A stretch of 38,115 nucleotides of DNA, taken from positions 1 to 38,115 of the IMG/VR virus record IMGVR_UViG_3300045902_000409; one strand, written 5' to 3'. This stretch comes from a virus. Below are positions 3,800-20,347 of this stretch, in pieces. The position numbers and the translations under genes are program-made. Below the pieces are notes generated by a model. It did no database searches. It saw only the letters and a list, made by a program, of their open reading frames with translations, and was not told where the DNA came from. Numbering within the stretch: the stretch's first letter is position 1; every line of letters starts with the position of its first letter.

Positions 3800-3835
3800 A
3801 CTTAAGATATTACTTTAATGGGATCTTCTTGTGAA
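3800..3835 (-). promoter_or_regulatory. Candidate leaderless promoter for the 3799 gene
   Basis: On the minus strand TTCACA (3835-3830), a 17-base spacer, TAATAT (3812-3807), then 7 bases and the ATG at 3799. The -35 matches 5 of 6 and the -10 only 4 of 6 consensus bases. It lies over the end of the upstream gene. It is the weakest of six elements with the same layout. Confidence 0.35.
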
Positions 3836-5076: not shown

Positions 5077-5159
5077 TAATCCCCCCGATTCATTAGCCAT
5101 AAGACAAAAGCAGTAGCGAGAGCAAAGTACAATAAGACACCAATAGCAATAATTTTCAT
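5076..5159 (-). CDS. 27-residue single-pass membrane peptide
   Basis: A short frame with a perfect SD, GGAGGA (5170-5165), 5 bases before its ATG. The product is M-K followed by about 20 uninterrupted hydrophobic residues (I-I-A-I-G-V-L-L-Y-F and on to V-L-W-L-M) and a polar end N-R-G-D: one transmembrane helix with a positive N-terminus. Its TAA overlaps the ATG of the aminotransferase (TAATG), so translation of the two is probably coupled. The strong SD and exact coupling argue against chance. It could be a membrane micropeptide or a translated leader for the aminotransferase. Confidence 0.6.
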   Translation of the reverse strand: MKIIAIGVLLYFALATAFVLWLMNRGD

Positions 5160-5187
5160 TTTTGTCCTCCGCCTATTTCTTCCGCCA

Positions 5188-5937
5188 TTAATTATTCGAA
5201 ATTTTGACGTAGACATGCATAAAGTCTCCATTTTTTATTTTAGAAGGAAGATCCAACGATGCCCAGGACAGGGCTTTGTGAATTTCATATTCATCGTCCA
5301 TTTTTAAAGTTTTTCTGGCGTAAATATCTAAAATTTTATTAAATGCCTTATCGGTGTCTGTGCTCCAAACAACAGCCTTCATTTTATTTTTATCGACTTG
5401 TCGATGAACCACCTTTGTCAGCTCGTCTATTGGGCTATGTTGTATAGTGTATTTTTTTTCTAAAAGAAGTGCCGATATATCTATATCTGTCCAGCTAGAG
5501 AGATTGACTGTGGGGTATTCCGGCTCTACCGCTTCCATGTCATCCTGCTTTAGGAAGGGGCGACCATTTTCAAAGATTGTGGAAAGTTGCAAAGAAGAGG
5601 AGAGCTGAATGCCGCCTGAATGGCGGATGCTGGGGCCAATAGCGCATAGTGCTTTGGATAGGTCGGGGCTAAATTCTCTTCCAAATCTACCTTCTGATTC
5701 ACTTAAAATTAAAAGAAACTGGCCAGACTCCATAGCTGCTTCTTTTAGCATTTCGAGATCTTGGGTAGAGATGTCTATGTCTCCGTACCACACCTTTTCT
5801 TTGTTGGATGTATAAATATTGGCGTTAAAAAACACCACATGGGTTGGATTGTTAAAAAGATATCGCCCCTTACTTCCTGATATAAGTCTACCGGCATTGC
5901 CGAGCTTTGCCGAGATTAGATCTGTCAAGTAATTCAT
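5188..5937 (-). CDS. Hypothetical protein, 249 residues
   Basis: The family is not recognised. The ATG has a very strong SD (AAGGAGGA), suggesting good expression. No signal or membrane helix. The N-terminal third carries a strand-rich stretch (T-H-V-V-F-F-N-A-N-I-Y), then a helical acidic part and S-G-Q-F-L-L-I-L-S-E-S-E-G-R-F-G. The C-terminal third has a helix with K-A-V-V-W-S-T-D-T-D-K-A-F. It overlaps the end of the FmdB-like gene by 4 bases, so the two are probably co-translated. The block of host-interaction-like small genes around it hints at an accessory role, without direct evidence. Confidence 0.6.
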   Translation of the reverse strand: MNYLTDLISAKLGNAGRLISGSKGRYLFNNPTHVVFFNANIYTSNKEKVWYGDIDISTQDLEMLKEAAMESGQFLLILSESEGRFGREFSPDLSKALCAIGPSIRHSGGIQLSSSLQLSTIFENGRPFLKQDDMEAVEPEYPTVNLSSWTDIDISALLLEKKYTIQHSPIDELTKVVHRQVDKNKMKAVVWSTDTDKAFNKILDIYARKTLKMDDEYEIHKALSWASLDLPSKIKNGDFMHVYVKISNN

Positions 5938-6311
5938 TTGTTGTCCTCCTTTTTTCGGACTCTGAATCTTCCACCTTCTTTAACAAATACACCATTTTGC
6001 TTCGCCTTATCTATAGGAAGTTTGCCTCTACCGTCTTCTATAATCTCATGAATGCCTTGATTGGCAAAATGGTCCTTAACTCTCTTATCAATAGCTTCGT
6101 CCCACTTAATGTCGCGCCTAGCTCCGGTGTCCCTATTTACAAGTGCCTTGACTGTTGTTACAGCTACCTGACTTAACTGCCTTTCCGTATTGCTGCCGCA
6201 AATAGGACAAATTGGCGTCTCTTCGGGCTTGGGAGTGCCATCAAAATACTGCTTAATCTCATAAAGCTCTTCTTCTTGATGATTTGGGCAGACAAATCTA
6301 TAGATCGGCAT
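5934..6311 (-). CDS. FmdB-type zinc-ribbon protein
   Basis: A 125-residue protein opening with M-P-I-Y-R-F-x-C, the signature start of the FmdB/zf-RRPxxxx family of small zinc ribbons. Metal ligands are Cys8 with His11 (C-P-N-H, in place of the usual C-x-x-C) and Cys35/Cys38 (C-P-I-C). The rest is a basic helical tail (about residues 70-125) ending in R-V-R-K-K-E-D-N-K, compatible with nucleic-acid binding. FmdB proteins are annotated as putative regulators; in phages the family is common and its job is unknown. The start has an AGGA SD and overlaps the stop of the upstream gene by one base. Confidence 0.75.
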   Translation of the reverse strand: MPIYRFVCPNHQEEELYEIKQYFDGTPKPEETPICPICGSNTERQLSQVAVTTVKALVNRDTGARRDIKWDEAIDKRVKDHFANQGIHEIIEDGRGKLPIDKAKQNGVFVKEGGRFRVRKKEDNK

Positions 6312-6760
6312 TAGGCATCCTGTATAGTGGTCAAGTGAGACGCTTTTTCAAAAATTCGCTTAGCAGCATAATAATCGTGCCTAGAAGCTTCAAGCTTCCC
6401 TTGAAGGAACGTAAGAACAGCCTTCGCTTGTTCTTGGTGCTCTTTAGCCTTAATATATAACTCATCTGTGTCTGCATAAGCCTTCCTTAATGTATCAGTT
6501 AGTTTGAGTTGTTTTTGTTCTGCATATATACTAGCCCGTTCCAGTAGTGCAAGAGCATACTGCCGCTCGGACTCAATCTTGGCTTGGCTGTACTGTAGCT
6601 CTGCCTTCGCCACTTCTCCAGAAAGTTCCGAAAAAATCATGTTTGCTGTTCGCATCAACAAGGGAGTCTCATTAATCACTGGCTCCATTAACTTCTCGTT
6701 GTTCTTGTTCAGTGCGTCTATCAGATCTTGTCGAATACTGAAGTTTGTAAGTTGGCTCAT
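6311..6760 (-). CDS. Helical coiled-coil protein, 149 residues
   Basis: The ATG at 6760 is preferred to an ATG 26 codons upstream because AAAGGGGAGT lies just before it. The product is almost entirely helical: Ala/Gln/Glu/Lys-rich heptads from about residue 45 to 140, with no Cys and no membrane segment. No family is recognised. Its first 89 bases overlap the lipoprotein gene at 6672 in another frame, and its stop overlaps the FmdB-like start by one base. A structural, adaptor or scaffold role would fit the composition. Confidence 0.6.
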   Translation of the reverse strand: MSQLTNFSIRQDLIDALNKNNEKLMEPVINETPLLMRTANMIFSELSGEVAKAELQYSQAKIESERQYALALLERASIYAEQKQLKLTDTLRKAYADTDELYIKAKEHQEQAKAVLTFLQGKLEASRHDYYAAKRIFEKASHLTTIQDA

Positions 6761-6980
6761 TTGACTCCCCTTTCGTTCTGCATTGGCAGAAGCTTGTCTC
6801 TCCGTCAGAGAATATCGCAAATCTAGTTCCAGGTCCATGCATTTTTTTACAAAAATTAGCGCATTTGGCCGATTCGCTTAAGTTATCGTAACTTCTGACT
6901 TTTGTTCGAGTTACTGGTCCAGGAGAGACACACCCGACCATAATGTTAGCTATGAGGATCGCTGTCCAAAACTTCAACAT
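6672..6980 (-). CDS. Small lipoprotein
   Basis: A 102-residue protein. The ATG at 6980 has GGAGAG 4 bases upstream and sits inside the 3' end of recA. The N-terminus is a lipoprotein signal: M-L-K-F, a short hydrophobic core and lipobox I-M-V-G-C, so Cys18 should be lipidated. The mature domain has four further Cys (C-A-N-F-C about residues 40-44, C-Q-C about 65-67) probably forming two disulphides, followed by a polar Arg/Glu/Gln tail encoded in the 89-base overlap with the next gene. A lipidated envelope protein could serve as an outer spanin, a superinfection-exclusion factor or similar; which one cannot be told. Confidence 0.65.
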   Translation of the reverse strand: MLKFWTAILIANIMVGCVSPGPVTRTKVRSYDNLSESAKCANFCKKMHGPGTRFAIFSDGETSFCQCRTKGESNEPTYKLQYSTRSDRRTEQEQREVNGASD

Positions 6981-8010
6981 GATGCTCTCCTTTTGCCCAT
7001 ATGGCGTCCATAACTGTTTTTTGTTCTTCTGGATTTTCCGACAAACTCTTGACCAAAGCAGCAAAGCCTACCAAGCTCTTGCCCCCAGGAAGGACGTATG
7101 TACGATTATTGGGCCGCTGGATTACGCCCTGATTAATCCCAAGTTTGGCGACTTCCTCGCCTTGATTAATGATGCCCTGACTAAAATGAAGCGTAAACTC
7201 AGCAACGCGACCCTCTCCGCCGGATCTAGTTTTGGTAACTTTTGCCCGGATTTTTTTGCCAACTACCTCGCCAGTGTCATTCATATTGTTGCTGGTTTCA
7301 TCTACAATAATAGAATCTTTAGAGCTAATTTTTTCTACCCTGACAACCAGTGAGGTGTTGTGTCTCAAAGTCATTCCAGACGGGAGAATGTACTTTTCGT
7401 ATTTGCTGGTGTTGGGATCCATATTGGTCCTGGCCTGACTGATAAGTACGCACAAAATATTATGTTGATTGATGTATTGCATTATAGACTTAAGTGCGAC
7501 TCCCAAAAACTTAGATAGGTCGCCGATAACCTGATCTCCGGTAGAGTCTTGATTATTTTCTTTAGGGCCGACCATGTTAGTTACAGAGTCAATGATAATA
7601 GCCTTAATTGGTGCACCTTCTTGGGACAGGGCCTGGGCTGTATTTTTAATATAATCAAAAATTTCCGAACCAATATTGCCGGACCTGTGCATCACTAGAT
7701 CGGCGTTAACCCCTTGAGTTTGTGCCCATTTTGGGCTAAAAGAGAACTCGGTGTCGAACCATAACGCAATGGCTTCTGGATCTTCTTTTTGAAGTTGTGC
7801 AATTAGGTTCATTGCAATAGTAGACTTGGAGCTTCCTTCCGGTCCCCAAAGAACAGTGATATGTCCTTTTGGAATGCCGCCGTGCGTAGCCCAATTAAGG
7901 GAAGGGGACGGAGTAACCAACAAATTTTCACTAATATCTTTGACTTGTGATGCGACCTTAGCAGCATCGTCAGCTTTAATTAAGGCAGACATCCACTTAT
8001 TTTTCGACAT
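6946..8010 (-). CDS. recA: RecA/UvsX-type recombinase
   Basis: A 354-residue strand-exchange ATPase that coats single-stranded DNA and drives homologous pairing for recombination-dependent replication and repair. Visible: Walker A G-P-E-G-S-S-K-S-T (residues 56-64), F-D-T-E (about 85-88, the catalytic Glu region), Walker B A-I-I-I-D-S-V (Asp141), an L1/L2 region and V-L-I-S-Q-A-R-T-N (the Q-x-R block). The last P-loop Gly is Ser, resembling T4 UvsX, where the Gly is also replaced. Length equals bacterial RecA. SD AAGGGG precedes the ATG, with a 7-bp hairpin directly upstream (separate entry). It works with the gp46/gp47, UvsW and SSB homologues elsewhere in the window. Confidence 0.93.
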   Translation of the reverse strand: MSKNKWMSALIKADDAAKVASQVKDISENLLVTPSPSLNWATHGGIPKGHITVLWGPEGSSKSTIAMNLIAQLQKEDPEAIALWFDTEFSFSPKWAQTQGVNADLVMHRSGNIGSEIFDYIKNTAQALSQEGAPIKAIIIDSVTNMVGPKENNQDSTGDQVIGDLSKFLGVALKSIMQYINQHNILCVLISQARTNMDPNTSKYEKYILPSGMTLRHNTSLVVRVEKISSKDSIIVDETSNNMNDTGEVVGKKIRAKVTKTRSGGEGRVAEFTLHFSQGIINQGEEVAKLGINQGVIQRPNNRTYVLPGGKSLVGFAALVKSLSENPEEQKTVMDAIWAKGEHHVEVLDSDPHS

Positions 8011-8019
8011 AAAACCCCT

Positions 8020-8039
8020 TTCAGATAGTTCAATCTGAA
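8020..8039 (-). promoter_or_regulatory. Hairpin abutting the recA ribosome-binding site
   Basis: A perfect 7-bp stem (TTCAGAT/ATCTGAA) with a 6-base loop. In the mRNA it spans the stop codon of the upstream gene and ends directly before the AGGGG of recA. No U-run follows, so a translational control or mRNA-end role is more likely than termination. Confidence 0.4.
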
Positions 8040-8305
8040 GTATGGCTTACAAAATTCGCGGGGTCAAGTCCTAAATTATACAGAGCGGTTAGAAGTATAT
8101 CTTTGATGTCACAACCTGTGACAACATAATCCTTGGGATAATGTTTTGCAACTACTTGTTGTATATACAGGGCAACCAGCCAGGCCGCTTCTAGCCTGTG
8201 TTGACACAGCTCGCAAGAGTCTTGGTGCTCAAAGCCTATGCGCCTTAGTTCGGTCTTGCAATTTTGCCGACTTAGCTTAGGCTTAAAATCAACGATATCG
8301 GCCAT
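8030..8305 (-). CDS. Hypothetical protein with Cys cluster, 91 residues
   Basis: A small soluble protein between recA and a membrane protein gene. A C-E-L-C pair with a following His (C-Q-H region, about residues 31-36) plus an earlier Cys could bind zinc; the rest is a hydrophobic helix (A-A-W-L-V-A-L-Y-I-Q) and a D-I-L-L-T-A-L-Y helix. SD is weak (AGGA 13 bases upstream); its ATG follows the previous stop with no gap. No family is recognised. Confidence 0.55.
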   Translation of the reverse strand: MADIVDFKPKLSRQNCKTELRRIGFEHQDSCELCQHRLEAAWLVALYIQQVVAKHYPKDYVVTGCDIKDILLTALYNLGLDPANFVSHTSD

Positions 8306-8839
8306 TTAGAATTGAAATCCTACCGAGAGACCTACTTGTTTATTTGTAATTCCAAAAGCGCCAAGATACACGGGTCCCAATATTCTGCGTTGGACGCTGA
8401 TGCCGTAATCGGGCTGTAAGGATTTGATATCTTTCATATTTGAAGAGGCTAGGGCAGATATCATCCAGTCGGGTTTTTTGTTTTTTACAATCTTTTCTTT
8501 GAGCTTCTCTTTCTCGGTTTTCTTTTTTTCTTCACTTTTTTCTTTGGTGTCTATGGCAATAATGCTGTTATCTTCCTCTACAATCTCGGTTCGCTCTTCT
8601 ATGGTTCCGTCTGGCTTAGTAATTCGAATAATGACTGTGCGCTTCTTTTTGTCCTTATTCTCTTTCTTAGTCTCATCCTTGACGTATATTTTCTTCTCAA
8701 CTTCAACAATTTTTTCTTTTTCAACAATCTGAACCTTAGAGGGTGCCAGGAGTCGACCGAAACCCACACCTATCGCTAATGCAATAATAACCCAAAAGAT
8801 CGGGCTTTTAGCCCATTTTAAGAGGGTGTCCTTTATCAT
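8306..8839 (-). CDS. N-terminally anchored charged phage protein
   Basis: A 177-residue protein. ATG 8839 is chosen because GGAGCAGG lies just upstream; an ATG seven codons earlier overlaps that SD. Order of parts: a transmembrane helix at about residues 10-30, a V-E-K-E-K-I-V-E-V-E-K coiled-coil repeat, a block with I-T-K-P-D-G-T-I-E-E-R, a Lys/Glu-only linker, then a small strand-rich C-terminal domain ending in G-L-S-V-G-F-Q-F. From memory, proteins with this layout occur in many tailed phages with no assigned role. Membrane anchor plus coiled coil resembles an inner spanin, but the folded C-terminal domain does not. It overlaps groEL by 32 bases. Confidence 0.6.
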   Translation of the reverse strand: MIKDTLLKWAKSPIFWVIIALAIGVGFGRLLAPSKVQIVEKEKIVEVEKKIYVKDETKKENKDKKKRTVIIRITKPDGTIEERTEIVEEDNSIIAIDTKEKSEEKKKTEKEKLKEKIVKNKKPDWMISALASSNMKDIKSLQPDYGISVQRRILGPVYLGAFGITNKQVGLSVGFQF

Positions 8840-10457
8840 TTTCCTGCTCCTTTTTTTCAAATGTTACCAGTCCGCCCAAGTTGCACAAAGTATTGGCAAT
8901 ACTTAATGCGCTGCGTAAAGATACGATGGCTACCTTAGTGGGATCTACAATACCACTCTCGAAAGCATCCTGTACAGTTTTATGGTTCCGAGCATCGTAT
9001 GCTGCCGGAGACTTCTTTTGTGCCAGGCTCTTGATTAGTTCCGCATAGTTCAAAATACCGGCATTTTTGAATAGAGTTTCTATAGGAGCCTTTAAAGATC
9101 TTGCTATGGCCTGATTGAAGGGATTTATGTCTTCTTGCAATAAGGACACAGCAGCACGAAGCAGGGTCGTTCCGCCCCCAGGAACGATCCCGCTTTCTTG
9201 TGCGCTGCGTATTGAGCATAAGGCGTCATCAATTCTAGCTCTTATTTCCTTGAACTCAGCAGGTGTCGGTGTACTGAGATTGATGACTGCTATGCCCCCA
9301 ACCAATCGACTAATTCTTTTCTTTTGGCCGTCACGGTCATAGTCTGACTCTAGCGACGGCATTTGTTCTTTTAATGCTGCAATATGCTTTTCCAATCTTG
9401 GTTGATTTGGATAGGCGTAGAATGTTGTTTGATATTTACCAGAAGTAACAGAAATAGCCTGACCAAGGCGCTCCAATAGATTTTCACCGGACATTGGATT
9501 ATTTACCCCGTTGAACACTTCCCCGTCTGTATATGTAGCCAAGTCGTGCAAAAAGTGCTGTGCTGAATTGGGCATGTAGTTTGCCTCTGAGATCATGGGG
9601 TAAATGTTTACGCTGGTTTTATTGAGGATAAAGAGTTTAAGAATGTCGTTGGCAAAGGAATGCGCCACTAAAACAACTGGCGGTCTTTGGCCCACAGGAA
9701 AGGTAGCTATAGCTTCCATTAATGGCACTACTTGATTTATTTGTTCAATGTTGCCATCAAAACAAGCTACTAGAACCTTGTCAGCTCGGAATTGCTGAGA
9801 TTCTTGATCAACAAAAAGACCTCCGCTGACTCCTATATCCTTCCAGCCCTTCCTACCGCTAAACCCAGGAGTATGCTTCACTGACATGGTTTTTTTGCCA
9901 GGATATCCTTCTTCTACGGTGATTTCTCCGTCTTCTCCTACCATATCAAAAGCCTGAATAAGGGACTCGGATATGTCAGGATCTCCATTAGAAGAAATGA
10001 TTGCGACGTGCTTCAAGTCTTCTAAACTCTTAACAGGCCGAGATTCTGACTCAATAAAAGGGATAATCCTAGCTTCAATAATTTTTTCAATTTGACGTAA
10101 AACTTCCTGAGTTGATCGGGTTCGATCTTGAGACATTAAGTTATTCAATTCATTAATGAAAGCATCGGCAAGGATAATAGAGGTAGTCGTTCCGTCTCCT
10201 GCTATATTTCCACATTCTTCGGAGGCTTGAATAATAACCTTAGCAATAGTATCTTTATTTGGATCCTTATAGCCCACGGACTTGGCTACGGTAACCCCAT
10301 CCTTAGTAACTTCGGGTGTGCGATCTAAGTGCTGAATCAATACAGGTCTTCCGCCAGGGCCATGAGTAGCTCCTACGATTTCAGCTATATCTCGAGATAC
10401 TTCCTTAACTAAGCTGTCAATATCTGTTTTTGATCTGAGTACAAGTTTTCTATCCAT
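8808..10457 (-). CDS. groEL: GroEL-type (group I) chaperonin
   Basis: A 549-residue subunit, the size of bacterial GroEL, expected to form the ATP-driven ring that folds virion or replication proteins. Visible: the nucleotide loop A-T-H-G-P-G-G-R-P-V-L (30-40), E-V-T-K-D-G-V-T-V-A-K (Asp53), A-G-D-G-T-T-T-S (Asp88), the hydrolysis Asp in R-I-D-D-A-L (Asp411), G-I-V-P-G-G-G-T, and D-P-T-K-V-A near the end. The apical domain (about 190-380) is divergent. The Gly-Gly-Met tail of cellular GroEL is absent; the end is charged. SD AGGTAGGA. No groES gene is visible in the window. Phage-encoded GroELs are known in some large phages. Confidence 0.92.
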   Translation of the reverse strand: MDRKLVLRSKTDIDSLVKEVSRDIAEIVGATHGPGGRPVLIQHLDRTPEVTKDGVTVAKSVGYKDPNKDTIAKVIIQASEECGNIAGDGTTTSIILADAFINELNNLMSQDRTRSTQEVLRQIEKIIEARIIPFIESESRPVKSLEDLKHVAIISSNGDPDISESLIQAFDMVGEDGEITVEEGYPGKKTMSVKHTPGFSGRKGWKDIGVSGGLFVDQESQQFRADKVLVACFDGNIEQINQVVPLMEAIATFPVGQRPPVVLVAHSFANDILKLFILNKTSVNIYPMISEANYMPNSAQHFLHDLATYTDGEVFNGVNNPMSGENLLERLGQAISVTSGKYQTTFYAYPNQPRLEKHIAALKEQMPSLESDYDRDGQKKRISRLVGGIAVINLSTPTPAEFKEIRARIDDALCSIRSAQESGIVPGGGTTLLRAAVSLLQEDINPFNQAIARSLKAPIETLFKNAGILNYAELIKSLAQKKSPAAYDARNHKTVQDAFESGIVDPTKVAIVSLRSALSIANTLCNLGGLVTFEKKEQENDKGHPLKMG

Positions 10458-10995
10458 CGAATCCTACCTTTATGATGTTTGAATCTTCAGGAACATTGGC
10501 AAATTCAATTATTCCGTTCATCAAATCCCGGGGAAACTCTGTTTGCTTGTGATTCTTAACAAGCCATACGTCACCGCAACATTGAGAATTTTCGTCATTA
10601 AATTCGGTGTTTAATAATCTCATTCCTACTGCATAGCGTCGATCCCGCCATTGGAACTTTTTGTCTTTATTAACAAAAGCAAATAGCGAATGCCCATGTA
10701 GGTTAATCTCATTATGAGTGGAATTCATGTACTGAGGTTTAATCTTAACAACGAAAATAAGGTCCTTTAGGATTAGCTCTGGCTTTTTAATTTCTGCCAA
10801 AAGATTAGATACCTTAGTTCCGATCTCATATCCTAGCATGGGATTTTTGCTATTTTTATGAACTAAAACAAATATTTGAGTCAGATGTCCTATAACTTTC
10901 TTTTTTATTAAGGAGCTTAGATGTTTATAGACTGCTGCTTCATTGTTTTTATGCACATTGAGCAGCATAAGGTCTGCGTATTTCTTTTTTTTCAT
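10450..10995 (-). CDS. Hypothetical protein, 181 residues
   Basis: A basic N-terminus (M-K-K-K-K-Y), alternating strands and helices, and a C-C-G-D-V-W-L-V segment near residue 145. There is no membrane helix or recognised motif. SD GGGAGC. It lies between the WxEFFAD-repeat protein and groEL and overlaps groEL by 8 bases, so it is probably co-translated with the chaperonin. It does not resemble GroES or T4 gp31 in length or in having a mobile loop I can identify, so a co-chaperonin role is not supported. Confidence 0.6.
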   Translation of the reverse strand: MKKKKYADLMLLNVHKNNEAAVYKHLSSLIKKKVIGHLTQIFVLVHKNSKNPMLGYEIGTKVSNLLAEIKKPELILKDLIFVVKIKPQYMNSTHNEINLHGHSLFAFVNKDKKFQWRDRRYAVGMRLLNTEFNDENSQCCGDVWLVKNHKQTEFPRDLMNGIIEFANVPEDSNIIKVGFDG

Positions 10996-11005
10996 TTAGC
11001 TCCCG

Positions 11006-12271
11006 CTAATCGTTAAAAAATTCATCCCAGGCGTCCATTCGCTGCTTAAGCTTCCTATCTTCTTCCTCATCAGCAAAAAACTCATCCCAGGTTTCTAGTC
11101 GCCTTTTAGTTTCTTCTTCCTGCTTCTTAATTTCATCTGCGAAGAACTCATACCAGGTATCTAGTCGCCTTTTAGTTTCTTCTTCCTGCTTCTTAATTTC
11201 ATCTGCGAAGAACTCGTTCCAAGTATTTCTGCGCTCTTCTTCTTTTACTTCAGAAACAAGCTTACCGTTTTCCATATAATCATCGTCTGATGCTAGTATT
11301 GGGTCTCTATCGTCCATATATTTCCTTACGTAGGTTTGGTAATAATAACTCGAAGTTATACAGTTATCAAGTTTTCCAGCTTTTGCTTCAATGCCGCATT
11401 GTGTTATAATACTTATCAAATCTGGGCGGATTCTTTCATCGGATAACTTCATTGGGGCTCCATATATTGAAACTGATGTATCGTAAATAAAAACTTTTTC
11501 TTTCCCATTACTTAAATAAAAACCCGCTCTGTAGAGCGGCTTATCTTTCTCGTAAGAGAAATGTAGAGATTCAGTTTGCCCTTTAAATTTTTTAATCTTA
11601 TGATAATTAGCGCGACGCACCAAAAGCTGATCCTGCCTCTTTACTTCATCCTGCTTTTCGTAGTCGTTGCAGGCCCAGCCACAAGTAGATAAAAACGGAT
11701 TAATCTTATCTACCATTTCATTCGATGGGTTCTGGTCATATATATCCCTTCCCCACTTATAGGAGGCTTTGGCATGTTCTAGTTGGGCGAAGTACAGCTT
11801 AGAAGGGGATGTCCATAACTTACCTTTGACGTGATAATAGCCGGATACATAAATATTCGAATGGATTTTAGCTTTATAATTTACTCGGAGTCGGATGATC
11901 CCTATTGCTTTCATTAATTTAATCAAGCGGTTAGCTCTTGGAAATCCTCCAGCTAAGCCTTCGAAGTGCTTCTTACCGAGATTATTTCTAAAAGTAAGCC
12001 CGTATCCTGACTTACTAAATGCATCATAATGCTTTGCCAAAAAGAAAAAGATTTTTGGAAGCCTCTTATTTAACTTCTTAATTTCATTAATTAAATGCTG
12101 CGGCTTTTGATACATATGCCCGTACTTATTTACATAAGCAGGGAGTATAAGTCTGCGAAATTGTTTTACAGTCTTTATGTGCTTCGGGCATCGAGTTTTT
12201 TTAAAAAGGGAAATTATAACGCTGCACGTCATCTTATTGTGCAATTTGTTGATAATTTCTTGATCAGACAT
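11006..12271 (-). CDS. Protein with C-terminal W-x-E-F-F-A-D repeats
   Basis: A 421-residue protein, first gene of the leftward transcript. Residues 1-345 are basic with many Tyr/Lys and no recognised family; a helix with R-L-I-K-L-M-K-A-I-G-I-I-R-L (about 115-130) could be part of a winged-helix DNA-binding unit. The C-terminus (about 350-421) holds four copies of W-[NYD]-E-F-F-[AN]-D; the first three are joined by a Lys/Glu/Arg helical linker with a 22-residue period. The ATG has no SD and sits 7 bases after a sigma70-like promoter. Repeated short aromatic-acidic motifs in a helical tail suggest multivalent binding to a partner protein. A replication or host-takeover role is only a guess. 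Confidence 0.6.
   Translation of the reverse strand: MSDQEIINKLHNKMTCSVIISLFKKTRCPKHIKTVKQFRRLILPAYVNKYGHMYQKPQHLINEIKKLNKRLPKIFFFLAKHYDAFSKSGYGLTFRNNLGKKHFEGLAGGFPRANRLIKLMKAIGIIRLRVNYKAKIHSNIYVSGYYHVKGKLWTSPSKLYFAQLEHAKASYKWGRDIYDQNPSNEMVDKINPFLSTCGWACNDYEKQDEVKRQDQLLVRRANYHKIKKFKGQTESLHFSYEKDKPLYRAGFYLSNGKEKVFIYDTSVSIYGAPMKLSDERIRPDLISIITQCGIEAKAGKLDNCITSSYYYQTYVRKYMDDRDPILASDDDYMENGKLVSEVKEEERRNTWNEFFADEIKKQEEETKRRLDTWYEFFADEIKKQEEETKRRLETWDEFFADEEEDRKLKQRMDAWDEFFND
11091..11222 (-). repeat. 66-bp tandem repeat inside the 11006 gene
   Basis: Two nearly identical 66-base copies (11091-11156 and 11157-11222) that differ at only a few positions, mostly at the unit ends. Each encodes one 22-residue W-x-E-F-F-A-D plus linker unit. 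Partial, more diverged copies flank them towards 11020. The near identity at synonymous positions points to a recent duplication. Confidence 0.9.
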
Positions 12272-12278
12272 TGAAGCT

Positions 12279-12307
12279 AGTATTGTACCAAATCATTTGA
12301 CTGTCAA
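12279..12307 (-). promoter_or_regulatory. Leftward sigma70-type promoter, leaderless layout
   Basis: On the minus strand TTGACA (12307-12302), a 17-base spacer, AATACT (12284-12279), then 7 bases to the ATG at 12271. The -35 is a perfect consensus match, the -10 matches 4 of 6. Transcription would start at or within a base or two of the ATG. Its -35 is one arm of the palindrome TTGACTGTCAA shared with the rightward promoter. Confidence 0.7.
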
Positions 12308-12325
12308 GCCTAGACACCATATACT
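12297..12325 (+). promoter_or_regulatory. Rightward sigma70-type promoter, leaderless layout
   Basis: TTGACT (12297-12302), 17-base spacer, TATACT (12320-12325), then TGGGGA and the ATG at 12332. Both hexamers match 5 of 6 consensus bases with ideal spacing. The start site is expected at about 12331-12333, on the start codon. It overlaps the leftward -35 by one base, so the two promoters probably compete for polymerase. Confidence 0.75.
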
Positions 12326-12331
12326 TGGGGA

Positions 12332-14092
12332 ATGAAGATCGAATTTACAGACTTTCAAGCTTTTGAAGGTTCTCACGAGCTGCATTTAGACGATCAAACT
12401 TGCTATTTATTGCACGGCAAAAATCTTGACGAAGGTGGATCTAATGGGTCCGGCAAGACTAGCCTTATGACCGCAATAGCGCTAGCCTTTACGGGCGAAG
12501 CCCCTAAAAACATTACAAAAAAAGAATTGCCGTTTAGCGGCAAAAATAACTTCCAGCTTTCTCTATCCTATGGAGACTTCAAATCTACTTTCGGAGATCA
12601 TGTAGTTATTAATGGTCAGGAAATGGGAAAATCTAAGTTTAACCAGGACTTCCAATCTCTATTGGGTTTCACAAAAGACCAATTTAACACCGTGTGCTAC
12701 ATATATCAAAACTCTAAAAATAGGTTTATGGATCTTTCTGACTCCGAAAAGAAAGACTTTTTATTCCCTTTAATGAACTGGGACTCTATTTTTGTCGGAC
12801 TGGAGCAGGCCAATTCAGATAAGAAGGCTTTGCCAGATACATCAATCAACCAAGAAGCCATAGTTGCGCTAGAGGGCCGCAGACAGAGCGCATTAAGTGC
12901 AGCAGCCGACCTGGCCATGAAAAAGGAGCTAGCACTATCTAAACTTAAGCAAGAAGTAGAAATCGCCAGAAATGAAGCCCAGACTATGGATGCAACATTA
13001 ATTAGACACCAAGAGGAGTTATTGAGTTTAAAAAAGTCTTTGGCGGACAAACTACGGTCTGACAAAAATCGACTCGATGAAATGAAAGACAAGTTAAAGT
13101 TAGTAGATCTTAAAAAACAAGAACTTATAAAGTTAGAGCTGCAAATATCTCAATTAAGCAATACTATTGCTGCCTTGCGCAATCCAAACACCAAGTGCCC
13201 TACTTGCGGTTCTGATATGCACAAAGACCACTCCGTAGCCATCAAGGAGCACTTAGCCGCCCTAGAAGATAAGCAACTACAACAAAAAGCTGTCAAAGAC
13301 TTTCTACAGGGCAGCGAAGAACTGCACGAATTAGCCACAAACTTAGAGCTACAGATTAGAACCGAAATCATCAACGGCACTCAGCAAAAGGAAACTGAAG
13401 TTGCCGGTCTCTCCACCTTGTCCGACCAATTGAAGAAGAATTTGGCAAATATTGAAAGACATTACAAGGAACAATCACAGAGCTTTGAACGAGAAGAATC
13501 ATCCCTAAAGCTGGCTATAGATACAATAGACAAGGATATTTTTGCCAATAAAAAAACCATAGAAGAGATCAATCTTAAGTCCATCCAACTTACTGAAATT
13601 ATTGACATTCTTAAAAAAGTTCAAAGTATTGCCATAGATATGGCCATGCGCGATCTTGTGGAGATTTCTAATATATGGCTTTCTCCGATGTCAGGAGGTG
13701 CGCTGAGCATAGATTTTGAGACTACCAAGGTACAAGGCAATAAGAAAGTAGCCCAAAAGATAGTTCCGGTAATCAATCACAAAGTAAGGGGGCCTGTATC
13801 TGTCGGCAGCCTTTCTGGGGGCGAATATGCCAAATGCCGCCTAGCCGTAGATATGGCCCTTCATGAGATCGTGACTGCTCGCGTCAATACCATTCCGAAG
13901 GTGCTAATGCTTGATGAAGTAACTCACGATATTGATGCAGAAGGCAAAATAGCTTTCTATAACTTGATAACTCAAAGACTTAGTGATAGATTTGTCTTAA
14001 TAGCAGAACACCATGAAGAAATAAAGGGGATGTTCAGTAACATTATCGTCGAAAAAAAAGACGGAAGGGCGCGGGTAATAAATAATGAGTAA
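12332..14092 (+). CDS. SbcC/Rad50-like ATPase (T4 gp46 type)
   Basis: A 586-residue SMC-like ATPase that, with the Mre11/SbcD-type nuclease, resects DNA ends to start recombination. Visible: Walker A G-S-N-G-S-G-K-T (36-43), the Q-loop area Y-I-Y-Q-N (about 130), two coiled-coil arms (about 175-280 and 305-430), a zinc hook C-P-T-C (289-292), the ABC signature S-G-G-E (495-498), and Walker B V-L-M-L-D-E (Asp528, Glu529) followed by D-I-D (D-loop). The arms are short, as in T4 gp46. The partner nuclease is encoded at 20348, not next door. First gene of the rightward block; its ATG lies 6 bases after the promoter -10. Confidence 0.93.
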   Translation: MKIEFTDFQAFEGSHELHLDDQTCYLLHGKNLDEGGSNGSGKTSLMTAIALAFTGEAPKNITKKELPFSGKNNFQLSLSYGDFKSTFGDHVVINGQEMGKSKFNQDFQSLLGFTKDQFNTVCYIYQNSKNRFMDLSDSEKKDFLFPLMNWDSIFVGLEQANSDKKALPDTSINQEAIVALEGRRQSALSAAADLAMKKELALSKLKQEVEIARNEAQTMDATLIRHQEELLSLKKSLADKLRSDKNRLDEMKDKLKLVDLKKQELIKLELQISQLSNTIAALRNPNTKCPTCGSDMHKDHSVAIKEHLAALEDKQLQQKAVKDFLQGSEELHELATNLELQIRTEIINGTQQKETEVAGLSTLSDQLKKNLANIERHYKEQSQSFEREESSLKLAIDTIDKDIFANKKTIEEINLKSIQLTEIIDILKKVQSIAIDMAMRDLVEISNIWLSPMSGGALSIDFETTKVQGNKKVAQKIVPVINHKVRGPVSVGSLSGGEYAKCRLAVDMALHEIVTARVNTIPKVLMLDEVTHDIDAEGKIAFYNLITQRLSDRFVLIAEHHEEIKGMFSNIIVEKKDGRARVINNE

Positions 14093-14918
14093 ACTAAAGA
14101 AACAAATGGGTAAGGCAAAAGATGCGGCAATGTCCGCTCTTAAAAAAATTGGTAAAGTTCTTAAAAAGGGGACTCTTCCTGTTCTAGCGTTCCTAGCCAC
14201 TTTGGCAATTTTCGGATTGGTATCTGCAAAAGGACCTCAGTGGCACGGTGATTATATTCGCTCAAAAGTAGGCTCAGTTACCTTAAAGATTGTTAAAGAC
14301 AATACGGAGAGATCCGGCGGAACTGGCTTTCATGTTAGAACAGAAAAAGGCAACGACTACATTTTAACTAACGCACATATTTGTGAAATGGCGGTAAATG
14401 GACAAGTTCTAGCCGTTACTCCAGACGGTAAAAAAAGAATGAATCGACGCGTTATCGAATCTTCCGAAGATCACGATCTATGCCTAGTAGAAGGCCTTCC
14501 CAATATGAAAGGCGTCCCTCTAGCAGCCAAAGATCCTGAAATTGGAGAGCTTATTGGAGTAGTAGGCCACCCTGCCCTATACCCTCTGACACTGTCCAGA
14601 GGCGAGTTTCGCGGCTTTACTACGATACAATTAGTAGTAGCAGTGAATGTTGAAAAAGAAGAATGTAGCAAGTCTAATCAGAAACTAATCGAAATGCCGC
14701 CAGATTCTTTAGAATTTGCTTTTGGATTAGAAAATATCTGCATTCAAGACTTCAGCGCCGGAGGAACCTCAGCTATGATTTTCCCAGGCAATAGCGGCTC
14801 TGCTACTGTTAATTTTTGGGGCAATTTGATTGGCGTTATATTTGCTGGTGACCGTCGCGGTTCTAGCGGCTTTTTTGTTCCGCTAAAAGAAATTCGAAAA
14901 TTCCTTACTCACTATTAA
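14085..14918 (+). CDS. Membrane-anchored trypsin-like serine protease
   Basis: A 277-residue protease. Order: a basic amphipathic N-terminus (1-28), one transmembrane helix (about 29-48, L-P-V-L-A-F-L-A-T-L), then a chymotrypsin-fold domain. The triad is visible: His98 in L-T-N-A-H-I-C, Asp131 in H-D-L-C-L-V, Ser237 in F-P-G-N-S-G-S-A. Four Cys could form disulphides, so the domain probably faces the periplasm. No PDZ domain, unlike HtrA/DegP. It overlaps the gp46 gene by 8 bases and the resolvase follows 2 bases later. An active envelope protease in a replication operon is unusual; it could process a phage or host envelope protein. A prohead protease is unlikely given the anchor. Confidence 0.8.
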   Translation: MSKLKKQMGKAKDAAMSALKKIGKVLKKGTLPVLAFLATLAIFGLVSAKGPQWHGDYIRSKVGSVTLKIVKDNTERSGGTGFHVRTEKGNDYILTNAHICEMAVNGQVLAVTPDGKKRMNRRVIESSEDHDLCLVEGLPNMKGVPLAAKDPEIGELIGVVGHPALYPLTLSRGEFRGFTTIQLVVAVNVEKEECSKSNQKLIEMPPDSLEFAFGLENICIQDFSAGGTSAMIFPGNSGSATVNFWGNLIGVIFAGDRRGSSGFFVPLKEIRKFLTHY

Positions 14919-14920
14919 GA

Positions 14921-15508
14921 ATGAAGATATTGGCAATTGACCTATCAACAAAACCAGGGGTGGCTCTTCTTGACGGAGAGCGACCCCTTTTTCATACGAC
15001 ACTATTCAATGACCTAACAAAGCGTGACTTCGGAACTTATCCAGAAAACATGCTCAAGATGACCTATTATGTAATAAACAAGCTTACAAATTTAACACAT
15101 AAATTAATTAGTGAGCACGGCAGACCAGACCTCATAGTCATAGAAGAGACTGTACCTGGTCGAGAAACCTATTCACAAAAACAATTAGAGTGGTTGCATT
15201 TTTGGCTTTGTCAAAAATTAATTGGAGAGTTTCAAATTGTTCCAAAATACATAAGAACTGGTGATTGGCGCAAAACATTAAATATGCGCCTGTCCAAGGA
15301 AGATAAAAAAAATAATCAACTTGTCTCTAAAGGAAAAAAACGAGGCCGCATCGGCAAGAAACATTTGAGCGTCCGAATGGCAAATGCTCGATGGAATTTA
15401 TCCTTAAAAATAAAAGATGAAGATGCGGCAGACGCATTAAATTTAGGACTTGCAGCATATATGGGCGCGCCATTCAGTACAGGAGAAATAATTAAAAAAA
15501 ATAGTTGA
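14921..15508 (+). CDS. RuvC-like Holliday junction resolvase
   Basis: A 195-residue RNase H-fold nuclease. Three acidic blocks match the RuvC family: M-K-I-L-A-I-D-L-S-T-K-P-G (Asp7), L-I-V-I-E-E (Glu75/76), and a C-terminal D-E-D-A-A-D-A-L helix (Asp168, Asp171). A basic insert of Lys/Arg/Gly residues (about 126-148) would contact DNA. It is expected to cut four-way or branched DNA before packaging and during recombination. There is no SD and no promoter at its start, so it is probably translated by coupling to the protease gene two bases upstream. A related DnaQ-unrelated crossover nuclease of pox/phage type is the only alternative. Confidence 0.8.
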   Translation: MKILAIDLSTKPGVALLDGERPLFHTTLFNDLTKRDFGTYPENMLKMTYYVINKLTNLTHKLISEHGRPDLIVIEETVPGRETYSQKQLEWLHFWLCQKLIGEFQIVPKYIRTGDWRKTLNMRLSKEDKKNNQLVSKGKKRGRIGKKHLSVRMANARWNLSLKIKDEDAADALNLGLAAYMGAPFSTGEIIKKNS

Positions 15509-15550
15509 TTGAATCTTCACAAAAAGATATCATCTAAGCGTGGAGGTTCA

Positions 15551-17404
15551 ATGAACGCATCAAACAAGCTACTGTCCGATATCGTCGCTTTTAGAACATA
15601 CGCAAAATTTTTACCAACCAAACAACGCAGAGAATCCCTGGAAGAAACCATTAATAGAACAATGGTCATGCACCTAGACCGATTCCCTAAGCTATCTAAA
15701 GAAATAACTAAGGCTTTTACTAAGGTACATAACCTATCTGTCATGCCTTCCATGAGGACCTTGCAGTTTGCAGGCGACGCTATTCTGAAAAACAATGCGC
15801 GAGGATATAACTGCTCCTTTGCACCCATTAGCGACATTCGAGTCTTTTCGGAAGGGCTCTTTGTCATGCTAAGTGGATGTGGCTTTGGATATTCAGTACA
15901 AAAGCACAACATTGAAAAGTTGCCAAAAGTGGGAAGAACTAAAGAAGAAAATATTTTTATAGTGCATGACAGCATTATGGGCTGGGCCCAGGCTCTTGAG
16001 GCTCTGATGTCGGCCTACTTTAATAGCAGCATCCGTCCTGTGTTTGATTTTTCAAATATCCGCCCTAAAGGTAGTTACCTCGTAACAACGGGAGCAAGAG
16101 CGCCAGGTCCCGAACCATTAAAAAAGATGCTTGAGCAGGTTGAAGAAAAGTTAAAGACTGCCAGGGATAGGAAATTAACCTCACTAGAGGTTCACGACAT
16201 AATGTGCATAATAGCTCAATCTGTATTGTCTGGCGGAATTAGACGTGCAGCTATGATTGTGCTATTTGATCGTGACGATACTGAAATGCTTAAATGCAAA
16301 TCTGGAGAATGGTGGATCAAGTACCCCTATAGAGCTAGAGCTAACAATAGTGCGGTGCTTCCAAGAAATGAAGTATCTAAAGAAGAGTTTTATGAGATAT
16401 TCAAGATGACTCAAGAAAGTGGTGCCGGAGAACCAGGTTTTTTCTGGACCAACGACATAAACATGGGCACGAACCCTTGCTGCGAAATTGCGCTCAATCC
16501 ATTCCAGTTTTGCAATCTTAGTACAATCAATCAGACAGGGATTACTTCCAAAAAAGAGTTTCTAAGTAGAATATATTCCGCCTCCCTATTGGGGACGCTA
16601 CAGGCTTCGTATACGGATTTTCCTTATTTAAGGGATATTTGGAGACAGACCACGGAAGCCGAGGCATTGCTAGGGGTCTCTTCTACAGGTATTGCAGACG
16701 CCGCTAACCTCATAACTGAAGATTGGCTTCAAGAAGGTGCCAAGCTGGCTCTTGATGTCAATGAAAAATATGCTAAAAAACTGGGCATTAATCCAGCAGC
16801 CAGAGTTACTGCTATTAAACCGGAGGGGACCTCATCAACCGTACTAATGTCCAGCTCAGGTATTCACGATAGGCATGCCCCCTTCTATCTTCGAAGAATT
16901 AGGATGAATAAGGACGATCCATTAACCATGTACCTAAAGCACACAATACCTGAACTCGTAGAGGACGATCTTTTTGATGCAGGCGGTGCAGTAGTAACAA
17001 TACCGCAAGAATCTCCTAACGGGGCGCTACTGAGGAACAACACGTCGGCAATTGACCTACTGAATCGAGCAATAAAATATAATCAAAACTGGGTAGCGCC
17101 AGGGCATAGATCTGGCAAAAACATGCACAACGTATCCTGCACTGTGTCGGTTAAAGATCATGAATGGAGCGCATTATGCGACGCAATGTGGCAACAAAAG
17201 GATCTGTACACAGGAATATCTTTACTTCCGTACGACGGGGGTACATATCAGCAAGCACCTTTTGAGGAATGTACAAAAGAAGTGTTTGACAGTTTGAGTT
17301 TATTAGTTAAGAATATTGACTTAAGAGAAGTAAAAGAAGAGCAAGACAACACAGCTAGAATGGATGCTCCAGCATGTGCTGGAGGTTTATGTGAAATTAT
17401 ATGA
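15551..17404 (+). CDS. nrdJ: Class II (B12-dependent) ribonucleotide reductase
   Basis: A 617-residue monomeric-type reductase making deoxyribonucleotides with adenosylcobalamin. ATG 15551 has GGAGG 4 bases upstream; a TTG 14 codons earlier does not. Active-site residues: Cys88 (N-C-S-F), Asn308/Cys310/Glu312 in N-P-C-C-E-I, Cys321 in F-C-N-L, and the C-terminal redox pair C-A-G-G-L-C (609, 614). The 310-321 spacing of 11 equals Cys408-Cys419 of the Lactobacillus leichmannii enzyme. The interval from the first redox Cys to the radical Cys is about 67 residues shorter than in that 739-residue enzyme, so the allosteric/insertion part is reduced. It needs no second subunit, but depends on host cobalamin and a thiol reductant. 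Confidence 0.92.
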   Translation: MNASNKLLSDIVAFRTYAKFLPTKQRRESLEETINRTMVMHLDRFPKLSKEITKAFTKVHNLSVMPSMRTLQFAGDAILKNNARGYNCSFAPISDIRVFSEGLFVMLSGCGFGYSVQKHNIEKLPKVGRTKEENIFIVHDSIMGWAQALEALMSAYFNSSIRPVFDFSNIRPKGSYLVTTGARAPGPEPLKKMLEQVEEKLKTARDRKLTSLEVHDIMCIIAQSVLSGGIRRAAMIVLFDRDDTEMLKCKSGEWWIKYPYRARANNSAVLPRNEVSKEEFYEIFKMTQESGAGEPGFFWTNDINMGTNPCCEIALNPFQFCNLSTINQTGITSKKEFLSRIYSASLLGTLQASYTDFPYLRDIWRQTTEAEALLGVSSTGIADAANLITEDWLQEGAKLALDVNEKYAKKLGINPAARVTAIKPEGTSSTVLMSSSGIHDRHAPFYLRRIRMNKDDPLTMYLKHTIPELVEDDLFDAGGAVVTIPQESPNGALLRNNTSAIDLLNRAIKYNQNWVAPGHRSGKNMHNVSCTVSVKDHEWSALCDAMWQQKDLYTGISLLPYDGGTYQQAPFEECTKEVFDSLSLLVKNIDLREVKEEQDNTARMDAPACAGGLCEII

Positions 17405-17688
17405 AGTTTTCTGATTACAACATAGAAAGGATTAGAGGGACTGGTCTAAGGACGGATATTCGCTCAATCTTTAACAGCAATTATCTTTGGACCGAGCTAT
17501 ATGAGGAGTGCGACGATCCTGCGCTAACGGAATGGGAGCTGGATTTTAAAGCCCGCAAAAAACCATATCATTTTGTAGAGGCTGTAGATAAAAAAACAGG
17601 AAACATATACTACTGCATTCTAGTTGAGGAAATCCCTTATGGCCGAAAAGCAAAGAATAAAAAAAATCAGAGCGGAAATCAGGCATGA
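17401..17688 (+). CDS. Hypothetical protein, 95 residues
   Basis: A small soluble protein whose ATG overlaps the nrdJ stop (ATATGA). It begins with an Arg-rich stretch (I-E-R-I-R-G-T-G-L-R), has an acidic centre (E-E-C-D-D-P) and a strand pair around Y-H-F-V-E-A-V-D-K-K-T-G-N-I-Y-Y-C, then a Lys-rich tail. No family is recognised. Position after nrdJ suggests co-expression, not necessarily related function. Its end overlaps the next gene by 50 bases. Confidence 0.55.
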   Translation: MKFSDYNIERIRGTGLRTDIRSIFNSNYLWTELYEECDDPALTEWELDFKARKKPYHFVEAVDKKTGNIYYCILVEEIPYGRKAKNKKNQSGNQA

Positions 17689-17884
17689 AAAAAACAAACT
17701 CCGCTCTGGAAGTAACACTGGAGACGATATATGGATAGCCAACATGATAAAACTTTTGAGGGAACAAAAAGCCCTTCAAAGCGACGACGCAGAAAAAGAT
17801 CCGTTCAGCCTGTCGCTCTTAGGCTACCCAGCGATAATGCTCCTGGTCGCCATATGGATATCAATGCGAATCTACAACCAGTAA
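17639..17884 (+). CDS. Small C-tail-anchored membrane protein
   Basis: An 81-residue protein. ATG 17639 follows TTGAGGA; the first 45 residues are basic and helical (E-K-Q-R-I-K-K-I-R-A-E-I), and the last 20 form one transmembrane helix (Y-P-A-I-M-L-L-V-A-I-W-I-S-M) near the very end, so the bulk should face the cytoplasm. It overlaps the previous gene by 50 bases and the next frame by up to 154. No family is recognised. Confidence 0.5.
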   Translation: MAEKQRIKKIRAEIRHEKNKLRSGSNTGDDIWIANMIKLLREQKALQSDDAEKDPFSLSLLGYPAIMLLVAIWISMRIYNQ

Positions 17885-18333
17885 ATGATTTTGTAATTCT
17901 GCACAGAATAGGGGAGATATTGATTGGTCTCATGGGGAAAACTTTGGCCAAATCTGCCAAATACCCTAAAGAAGCTGAAATAGTGAATGAAGCTCTTCAG
18001 AGTTTTATTAATCGTAAGTTGAAGGAAATATACGGGTTTCCTGAAATACCCGCAAAAGAAGAAACTCCAGTAACCAAGGAAGAAGCGATGCGTATGGTCA
18101 AGGAAGCGATTAATAAGGTCAAGGGAAAGGCGAGCGCCGCCCCCAAGCAGTCGCCCCCGGCCTCGTATGTTTCCGATACATATGTCAATCCACCAGAAAC
18201 TCCGTCGGTAGATAACTACAATCCTCACTCTTTTATTAATAGGAGAATGGCAGACGATAGCCTTGATTCGGGTCGGGGCGATTTTTCTAGTGGACAAATT
18301 ACCGATCTTGCACAAAGATTACTTAAGGGTTAG
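17731..18333 (+). CDS. Hypothetical protein, up to 200 residues
   Basis: The ATG at 17731 has GGAGA 6 bases upstream but makes a 154-base overlap with the membrane protein, and its first 41 residues are Arg/Lys-rich and look like an out-of-frame reading. An ATG at 17854 (159 residues) reduces the overlap to 31 bases but has no good SD; the true start is undecided. The common part has a helix (V-I-L-H-R-I-G-E-I-L-I), a second helix with N-E-A-L-Q-S-F-I, a Pro/Ala-rich linker and a polar tail ending in D-L-A-Q-R-L-L-K-G. Its place just before the DnaB-type helicase makes a helicase-loader-like role conceivable but unproven. Confidence 0.5.
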   Translation: MDSQHDKTFEGTKSPSKRRRRKRSVQPVALRLPSDNAPGRHMDINANLQPVNDFVILHRIGEILIGLMGKTLAKSAKYPKEAEIVNEALQSFINRKLKEIYGFPEIPAKEETPVTKEEAMRMVKEAINKVKGKASAAPKQSPPASYVSDTYVNPPETPSVDNYNPHSFINRRMADDSLDSGRGDFSSGQITDLAQRLLKG

Positions 18334-18356
18334 TTTCACAAATAGTAGGAGTTTTC

Positions 18357-19799
18357 GTGAATAGGCCAGCACACCTAACGGCAGTAGAGAAGACGGACTT
18401 TGAATTTGGAAGAGACTATAGACTGGCACTAATCAAGGCCATGTGGGAGTCTCCAGAAAAACTACTCATATCTGCAAGAGACTTCGATTCTAAATTACTA
18501 GAAGACCAAAATATGGCCTTCTTGTTTGACTTCATAAAGAGATTCGCTGAAGGCTCGGGACAGGCACCTACCAGAGCTACAATAGTTGCATATATTCAGG
18601 ACGTAGCCAAGTCGGACTTTACTCAAAAAACTAGACTTCTTGACCTGTTATCGGAAATTGAAAATTGCCAAATTCAGACCCAATATGCAGTAGATAGGTT
18701 TAAAAAATTTGCTATCCGCCAAAAATTGCGCAAGGGCTTTAAGGAAATAATCTCCTCTGGCGAAGATTTGAGGCCCGAAAGAGTTTCATCCAGTCTTTCT
18801 GCACTGTTAAAAGACATACAAGATATCCATAACAATGACCACACGTATAACCCATTAGACCTTAATAAAAACAATGTCTTAAGTTCTTTATCGAGAATAT
18901 ACTTAAATAGGCAAAATCCAATCCGTTGCGGAGTGAAGGCTATCGACGATGCCTTGGGTGGTGGTTTTCAAAAAGCCGGTCTTTATTTTTTCATAGGCGG
19001 TGCAGGTACTATGAAGTCCATGACCATGATGAATATTACTTACGAGGCGGTCAGGGCAGGGAAAAAAGTGGCGTATGTGGATATGGAAAACGGCAACGAC
19101 AATCTGCTTGTTAGGTTCATAGTCAGATTTTCTGGACTAACTAATAAAACCGTGCTCTATAATATGGACGCATGGACACAAGAACAGCAAGACGCCATAC
19201 TCCAAGCCGAAGAGACCCTGAAGCGCCAAGTTAATTTTCTTAACTTTTCCATTACGGGCAAGAACAAAATCGAGGACTTAGATGCTTTTATTGAAGCATC
19301 GCGTAAAGATATGCCATTTGACTTGCTCATTATAGATTCACCTAGGAATATGCATTCTTATGATTCAGCCGGGCTGAAGTCCATGCACGAAAGAGAAGCG
19401 ATTATTTACCATAAGATAAAAGGAATGGCGTCCAAGTACCAGGTCCCTATAGTCTGCCCATTGCAATTTAATAGAGAAGGAAATAGAAAATCAAGAAATT
19501 CCAATGAAAGCGCCGATAGGCAGGATGTGGCTGGTACTTTTGAAGCTATTAACTTGGCCGACATGGTAGTCCTTTTGAAGAAAGTTACGGACGATCAGTC
19601 ATCAGGTAGAGGTAGCTGGATAGTATGGCATGTTGACAAGATTAGGAGCGGAGACAAGGATAACATTAAGGTAGCCTGCCGATCAGACCTATCAAGACTC
19701 ATTACTCACTCCCCAGATTTGCCGCAGCAAGTCGTATTAGGTAAGTCCCTAGACGATATAATGAATGAAATAGCCATGTTAGATAGGGATAATAGATGA
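18357..19799 (+). CDS. dnaB: DnaB-type replicative helicase
   Basis: A 480-residue hexameric 5'-3' helicase that unwinds DNA ahead of the polymerase. GTG start with AGGAG upstream. Residues 1-155 are a helical N-terminal domain; from about 185 a RecA-fold motor with C-G-V-K-A-I-D-D-A-L-G-G-G-F (the usual DnaB lead-in), Walker A G-G-A-G-T-M-K-S (214-221), D-M-E-N (catalytic Glu region, about 242-245), Walker B L-L-I-I-D-S (Asp327), and P-L-Q-F-N-R-E (motif H4-like). The P-loop Gly before Lys is Met, which is atypical. No separate DnaG primase is recognised in the window. Confidence 0.88.
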   Translation: MNRPAHLTAVEKTDFEFGRDYRLALIKAMWESPEKLLISARDFDSKLLEDQNMAFLFDFIKRFAEGSGQAPTRATIVAYIQDVAKSDFTQKTRLLDLLSEIENCQIQTQYAVDRFKKFAIRQKLRKGFKEIISSGEDLRPERVSSSLSALLKDIQDIHNNDHTYNPLDLNKNNVLSSLSRIYLNRQNPIRCGVKAIDDALGGGFQKAGLYFFIGGAGTMKSMTMMNITYEAVRAGKKVAYVDMENGNDNLLVRFIVRFSGLTNKTVLYNMDAWTQEQQDAILQAEETLKRQVNFLNFSITGKNKIEDLDAFIEASRKDMPFDLLIIDSPRNMHSYDSAGLKSMHEREAIIYHKIKGMASKYQVPIVCPLQFNREGNRKSRNSNESADRQDVAGTFEAINLADMVVLLKKVTDDQSSGRGSWIVWHVDKIRSGDKDNIKVACRSDLSRLITHSPDLPQQVVLGKSLDDIMNEIAMLDRDNR

Positions 19800-19808
19800 C
19801 GGTATTTT

Positions 19809-20321: not shown

Positions 20322-20341
20322 CCTTAGTTTGGCTGTAAACT
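20313..20341 (+). promoter_or_regulatory. Candidate leaderless promoter for gp47 gene
   Basis: TTGAAC (20313-20318), 17-base spacer, TAAACT (20336-20341), then AATTTT and the ATG at 20348. Each hexamer matches 4 of 6, but the spacer and the 6-base gap to the ATG equal those of the promoters at 12332 and 37353, and the -10 with its preceding TG (TGTAAACT) is identical to the one at 37353. No SD is present. Confidence 0.45.
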
Positions 20342-20347
20342 AATTTT
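20324..20347 (+). terminator. Terminator-like hairpin before gp47 gene
   Basis: A 7-bp stem TTAGTTT/AAACTAA (20324-20330 and 20337-20343) with loop GGCTGT, followed by TTTT (20344-20347) and immediately the ATG. AT-rich and short, so termination would be partial. Its right arm contains the -10 of the promoter candidate. Confidence 0.4.

Follow-up and report, generated by a model that had tools for sequence, protein, structure and literature searches.

Predicted Promoters of the 60-bp Divergent Gap

The window analyzed in this work, a 38-kb fragment of an uncultivated virus (38,115 nt), carries two divergent gene arms separated by a gap of 60 bp (12272-12331), which raises the question of how two opposing promoters are accommodated in this region, how the flanking genes are translated, and whether the arrangement acts as a switch. 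The gap contains two opposing sigma70-type promoters, a leftward and a rightward one. In the rightward promoter, the -35 box TTGACT (12297-12302, + strand) is separated by a 17-nt spacer from the -10 box TATACT (12320-12325, + strand), which is followed by TGGGGA (6 nt) and the ATG at 12332. The leftward promoter consists of the -35 box TTGACA (TGTCAA on the + strand; 12302-12307, - strand), a 17-nt spacer and the -10 box AATACT (AGTATT on the + strand; 12279-12284, - strand), followed by AGCTTCA (7 nt) and the ATG ending at 12271. Base 12302 is common to both -35 hexamers, and the two abutting boxes form the palindrome TTGACTGTCAA (12297-12307, no strand). Direct reading of the sequence showed that the boxes, the N17 spacers and the 6- and 7-nt distances to the ATGs given in the original prediction were exact to the base. 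An alternative leftward extended -10 element (TGGTACAAT) overlaps AATACT and would leave a 3-nt leader, i.e., the transcript would still be near-leaderless.

The leftward gene (11006-12271, - strand) encodes a 421-aa protein with no assigned family (no match in Pfam, PHROG or NCBIfam) and heads the GroEL/RecA arm, while the rightward gene (12332-14092, + strand) encodes an SbcC/gp46-like ATPase (phrog_77, E 3e-38) and heads the replication/packaging arm; both are predicted to be leaderless. The two arms had been correctly described; the left one encodes GroEL and RecA-like proteins, and the right one SbcC-like, RNR, DnaB-like helicase, terminase and portal proteins. A single-sequence structure model of the 421-aa protein was uninformative (pLDDT 41). 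Near the 3' end of its gene, 66-nt tandem repeats (11067-11226; 2.4 copies, 91% matches) encode repeated DTWYEFFADEIKKQEEETKRRL-like units.

Both start codons are well defined. In-frame stop codons are located 24 nt (TGA, left gene) and 21 nt (TAG, right gene) upstream with no start codon between, so longer proteins and upstream starts are excluded, and the rightward start is also fixed by homology of the SbcC N-terminus. The earlier claim that neither gene has a usable Shine-Dalgarno (SD) sequence held up, as the pairing energies were -2.8 kcal/mol for the left gene and -0.9 kcal/mol for the right gene (the latter with the last 3 nt omitted), vs. a median of -6.5 kcal/mol for the other 34 window genes. 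The rightward GGGG is placed 1 nt from the ATG, which is too close to act as an SD.

The -10 box is usually located 7 nt from the transcription start (PMC12825309), and the distances in the gap fit this value. Leaderless genes are marked by a TANNNT motif that precedes the start codon by about 12 bp (PMC3160421), and the gap also fits this pattern: the distance to the ATG is 12 nt from the start of TATACT and 13 nt from that of AATACT, which deviates from the motif at its first base. From these elements, we infer two active back-to-back sigma70-type (housekeeping sigma) promoters with abutting -35 boxes, in which each RNA would have its 5' end on the start codon or no more than about 1-4 nt away. 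The 421-aa gene and the SbcC-like gene would then be expressed from leaderless mRNAs, and 70S ribosomes would presumably recognise the 5' AUG of both.

Placement of the Promoters and Chance Expectation

Both gap promoters show 10/12 sigma70 matches and rank at the top of the 41 promoter-like sites found in region 5000-24000. Since this number equals the shuffle expectation (mean of 42.3), a bare consensus match alone means little, and the non-random feature of the gap promoters is their placement. When the 60-mer was subjected to 20,000 dinucleotide shuffles, a correctly placed promoter scoring at least 8.5 appeared 56 times in the rightward and 29 times in the leftward direction, and both appeared together in none. 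The palindrome itself is not significant, as TTGACNGTCAA has a single exact occurrence in the window and, with one mismatch allowed, gives 1 match vs. 1.05 expected; it is a consequence of the two -35 boxes abutting. This -35 junction was the sole palindrome examined between the promoters; its count was not in excess, and a role as an operator was set aside as unsupported.

For all gene starts in the window, a 17-spaced promoter was sought at every -10-to-start distance and scored with an approximate E. coli sigma70 matrix written for the test, which was assumed to suit the host. The threshold (8.5) was chosen after viewing the window; its unchanged application to the relatives (see below) constitutes an independent test. 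A promoter reaching at least this score, with the -10 box ending 6-7 nt before the start, was found at 6 of 40 window gene starts [i.e., 3302-3799 (-), 11006-12271 (-), 12332-14092 (+), 20348-21199 (+), 35884-37353 (-), and 37398-37712 (+)], and at none of 1279 non-start ATGs of the window, whereas 2000 upstream shuffles gave a mean of 0.06 such genes and a maximum of 2. All six genes are without a good SD, and their SDs are weaker than those in the rest of the window (Mann-Whitney p=4e-4).

Outside the two divergent gaps, leaderless-type promoters are represented by TTGAAC-N17-TAAACT (20313-20341, + strand), located 6 nt before the ATG (20348) of an SbcD-like phosphoesterase gene, and TTCACA-N17-TAATAT (3807-3835, - strand), located 7 nt upstream of the start codon (ATG ending at 3799) of a gene encoding a 165-aa protein. 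In contrast, the promoter TTGACT-N17-TATAGT (23651-23679, + strand) lies 40 nt before the ATG at 23720, and its leader carries a GGAG SD. The phage, therefore, appears to use two layouts, i.e., promoters linked to the start codon of genes without an SD, and promoters about 40 nt upstream of genes with an SD. The pattern is wider than the single gap originally noticed and looks like a shared expression mode rather than a one-off switch. SbcC and SbcD are normally partners; the genes of the SbcC-like (12332-14092) and SbcD-like (20348-21199) proteins are 6 kb apart, and the leaderless-type promoters present on both may keep them co-regulated.

The gap at 37354-37397 (44 bp) holds a second divergent leaderless-type pair, in which the overlap is even tighter. 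The leftward promoter comprises the -35 box TTTACT (37383-37388, - strand) and the -10 box TAAACT (37360-37365, - strand), placed 6 nt before the ATG of a DNA helicase gene (35884-37353), and the rightward one comprises TTTACA (37362-37367, + strand) and TAAATT (37385-37390, + strand), placed 7 nt before the ATG of gene 37398-37712. The two promoters are nearly fully interlocked, as each -35 box overlaps the opposite -10 box, and both transcripts are predicted to be leaderless. In Mx1, a related phage described below, a phage sigma factor is annotated beside the helicase; the equivalent window gene gave no family match.

Leaderless-Type Spacing in Related Phages

Four proteins of the window were similar to those of Myxococcus phage Mx1 (genome of 169.6 kb), i.e., terminase (30% identity), GroEL (30%), DnaE (34%), and SbcC (26%), and a profile search yielded 31 IMG/VR loci belonging to the same broad lineage, several of which lie on 160-170 kb contigs. 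The GroEL arm and the terminase arm diverge in Mx1 and in many relatives, with SbcC on the GroEL side, whereas in the window SbcC heads the opposite (terminase) arm. Judging by the four homologues and the two-arm layout, the window can be assigned to an Mx1-like lineage of ~170-kb phages. Of 33 delta-proteobacterial genomes, 8 had predicted leaderless genes, which made up 15.8% of genes on average (PMC3160421), a usage compatible with an Mx1-like host range for the window phage. Single-protein queries of IMG/VR revealed no close relatives of the flanking genes, terminase or GroEL, and the nucleotide search of a phage collection gave no match. In the examined part of G001, the nearest terminase relative, there was no comparable junction.

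Within 11 distant relative records (1164 genes), a promoter was placed 6 nt before the start in 21 genes and 7 nt before it in 17, while other distances were represented by a mean of 2.6 genes each (38 genes at 6-7 nt vs. about 5 expected). The peak persisted at thresholds from 7 to 10.5, and 84% of the matches forming it were without a strong SD. For the relatives, the P values are somewhat inflated, since the records share ancestry, ORFs were called in a simple way and up to four candidate starts were allowed per ORF; they are optimistic in that orthologous sites may be counted in more than one relative. The records vary: G016, G020, G012, and G002 are rich in such genes, and there was no excess in G001, G009 or Mx1. 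The pooled controls (T4, KVP40, SPO1, lambda, and the segments of Mx1) showed no peak (P 0.4), although KVP40 alone gave a few matches (3 vs. 0.74 expected); 42 bacterial loci showed a slight peak only, and Thermus phage P23-45, a weak positive control, gave 2 matches vs. 0.06 expected.

Amongst 25 SbcC orthologues, 5 had a good -10 box at 4-6 nt upstream of the start (0.4 expected). Divergent leaderless-type pairs were found in G012, G017, and G002, 93-427 bp apart and with separate -35 boxes. Two strong pairs of this kind occur in a single locus of G012 (L022, at 3572-3666 and 14648-14766), and a near-identical promoter, TTGACATTTAATCG-TAAATGGATATATTAAATC, is present at one gene of each pair.

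The original claim that both transcripts of the main gap are leaderless is, thus, well supported as a sequence-level prediction, in the window and as a property of the lineage. We consider it likely, with good confidence, that the gap exemplifies a mode of expression that serves part of the genes throughout this lineage of ~170-kb phages: where a gene has its own promoter but lacks an SD, the -10 box would keep a constant distance of 6-7 nt from the start codon. The -35 overlap is best read as two promoters of this start-codon-linked kind packed into 60 bp.

Competition, Switching and Other Readings

It had also been proposed that polymerase serves one direction at a time, as a built-in switch between the arms. 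The steric exclusion of two polymerases is sound, but the switch is unsupported: no DNA-binding regulator family was recognised beside the gap and, with no regulator, exclusion gives competition, not switching. The overlap should make the two polymerases mutually exclusive, so competition is possible; at bidirectional promoters of E. coli, it was not seen at basal strength but only when one side was strong or activated (PMC12825309).

A true regulatory switch, in which a phage or host protein would bind TTGACTGTCAA or one of the promoters and tip polymerase in a cI/cro-like manner, seems to us improbable, although it is the best of the alternatives. Occupancy of the overlapping promoters would be mutually exclusive, both are near consensus, which makes competition plausible, and in E. 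coli, a bidirectional promoter that is strengthened in one direction becomes repressed in the opposite one (PMC12825309). However, no repressor or regulator gene was recognised beside the gap, the two -35 boxes account for the whole palindrome, which is not in excess, the right arm has more promoters inside (20313-20341 and 23651-23679), and the divergent pairs of the relatives do not overlap.

Somewhat less likely still are leadered, SD-independent transcripts, which would start upstream, inside the opposite gene, and be translated with the help of S1 or of AT-rich stretches free of structure. Genes without an SD are numerous in bacteria and phages, and a 9/12 leftward promoter-like match does occur inside the right gene (12709-12681), but such matches inside genes appear at chance rate (41 vs. 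42.3), and the fixed 6-7 nt distance from the -10 box to the start, in the window and in the relatives, would be left unexplained. Finally, the idea that AT-rich intergenic DNA happens by chance to match a loose consensus is barely credible, since promoter-like matches are indeed common in the window sequence but the joint placement of both promoters was never reproduced by shuffling, its spacing was absent from the non-start ATGs, and the peak was replicated in the relatives.

Comparison with Known Systems

The compact, start-codon-linked promoters proposed here resemble several described systems in part. In phage PY54 the cI and cro genes are divergent and both mRNAs were shown by RACE to be leaderless, starting from the AUG (PMC4488713). 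The main gap likewise lies within a divergent phage gene pair, for which leaderless transcripts are predicted from the sequence; however, the PY54 genes encode repressors, with a mapped operator and no reported shared -35 box, whereas neither of the proteins flanking the gap (SbcC-like and 421-aa) is recognised as a regulator, and no operator was found. Unlike a cI/cro-type switch, the gap has no recognised DNA-binding regulator beside it, one flank being an SbcC-like ATPase.

Leaderless genes are widespread in bacteria (PMC3160421, PMC12340547). Both the TA-led leaderless bacterial genes (PMC3160421) and the Deinococcus-Thermus genes with an adjoining -10 motif (PMC12340547) share with the window the -10 box located about 12 bp upstream and the lack of an SD, and in Deinococcus a -35 box placed 17 bp from the -10 box raises expression (PMC12340547). 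Those cases are cellular, whereas the present one concerns a phage lineage in which the -35 boxes are well formed. The E. coli bidirectional promoters are alike in that opposing polymerases cannot bind together and may compete, but their start sites mostly lie 18, 10 or 23 bp from each other and their -10 regions interlock (PMC12825309). Here, the predicted start sites are 61 bp apart in the main gap and 45 bp apart in the second one, and the overlap involves the two -35 boxes or a -35 and a -10 box, respectively, which places both gaps outside the class of Warman and Grainger. The lambda PRM-cI transcript is also leaderless (PMC3160421); it concerns another gene and another host. The same holds for Thermus phage P23-45 and Saccharopolyspora ermE/eryCI, where leaderless transcripts originate in part from divergent promoters; amongst these three, the comparison at the sequence level covered P23-45.

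Divergent leaderless phage gene pairs were, therefore, already known (PY54 cI/cro). What is new is the shared -35 geometry of two predicted leaderless promoters, neither of whose genes was recognised as encoding a regulator, together with the statistics that indicate leaderless-type spacing across a phage lineage. Leaderless phage transcripts have so far been mainly scattered cases (e.g., lambda cI, PY54 cI/cro), whereas the spacing data suggest a habit of a whole lineage of large uncultivated phages, which concerns about 15% of the window genes, DNA-processing ones included. If true, starts in these genomes would be misplaced or scored too low by automated annotation and SD-based start calling, and the lineage would offer a natural system for studying why a virus keeps two modes of translation initiation. 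It is conceivable, though rather doubtful, that start-codon-linked promoters mark a distinct class, by which SbcC-like, SbcD-like and helicase mRNAs would be 70S-initiated during impairment or remodelling of SD-dependent initiation, and that overlapping divergent promoters time the arms.

Accessory Observations

The window also contains a class IV aminotransferase gene (4189-5076; PF01063, E 1e-41), an unusual cargo for a phage. Exact peptide patterns revealed no relatives of this protein in sequenced genomes, and its gene together with terminases in genome contigs provided no usable host signal.

In the related phages, in-frame inserts were found in GroEL, one of 146 aa (L062:6080-6517, G017) and one of 330 aa (L075:14711-15700, minus strand, G016). 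They sit inside the ATP-binding motif (AGDG / TTT) and end in HN before T. The 330-aa insert matches homing-endonuclease (LAGLIDADG) and Hint models, and the 146-aa one weakly matches an intein splicing domain. They are probably inteins within the chaperonin gene of a phage, and their first residue (Pro) is unusual.
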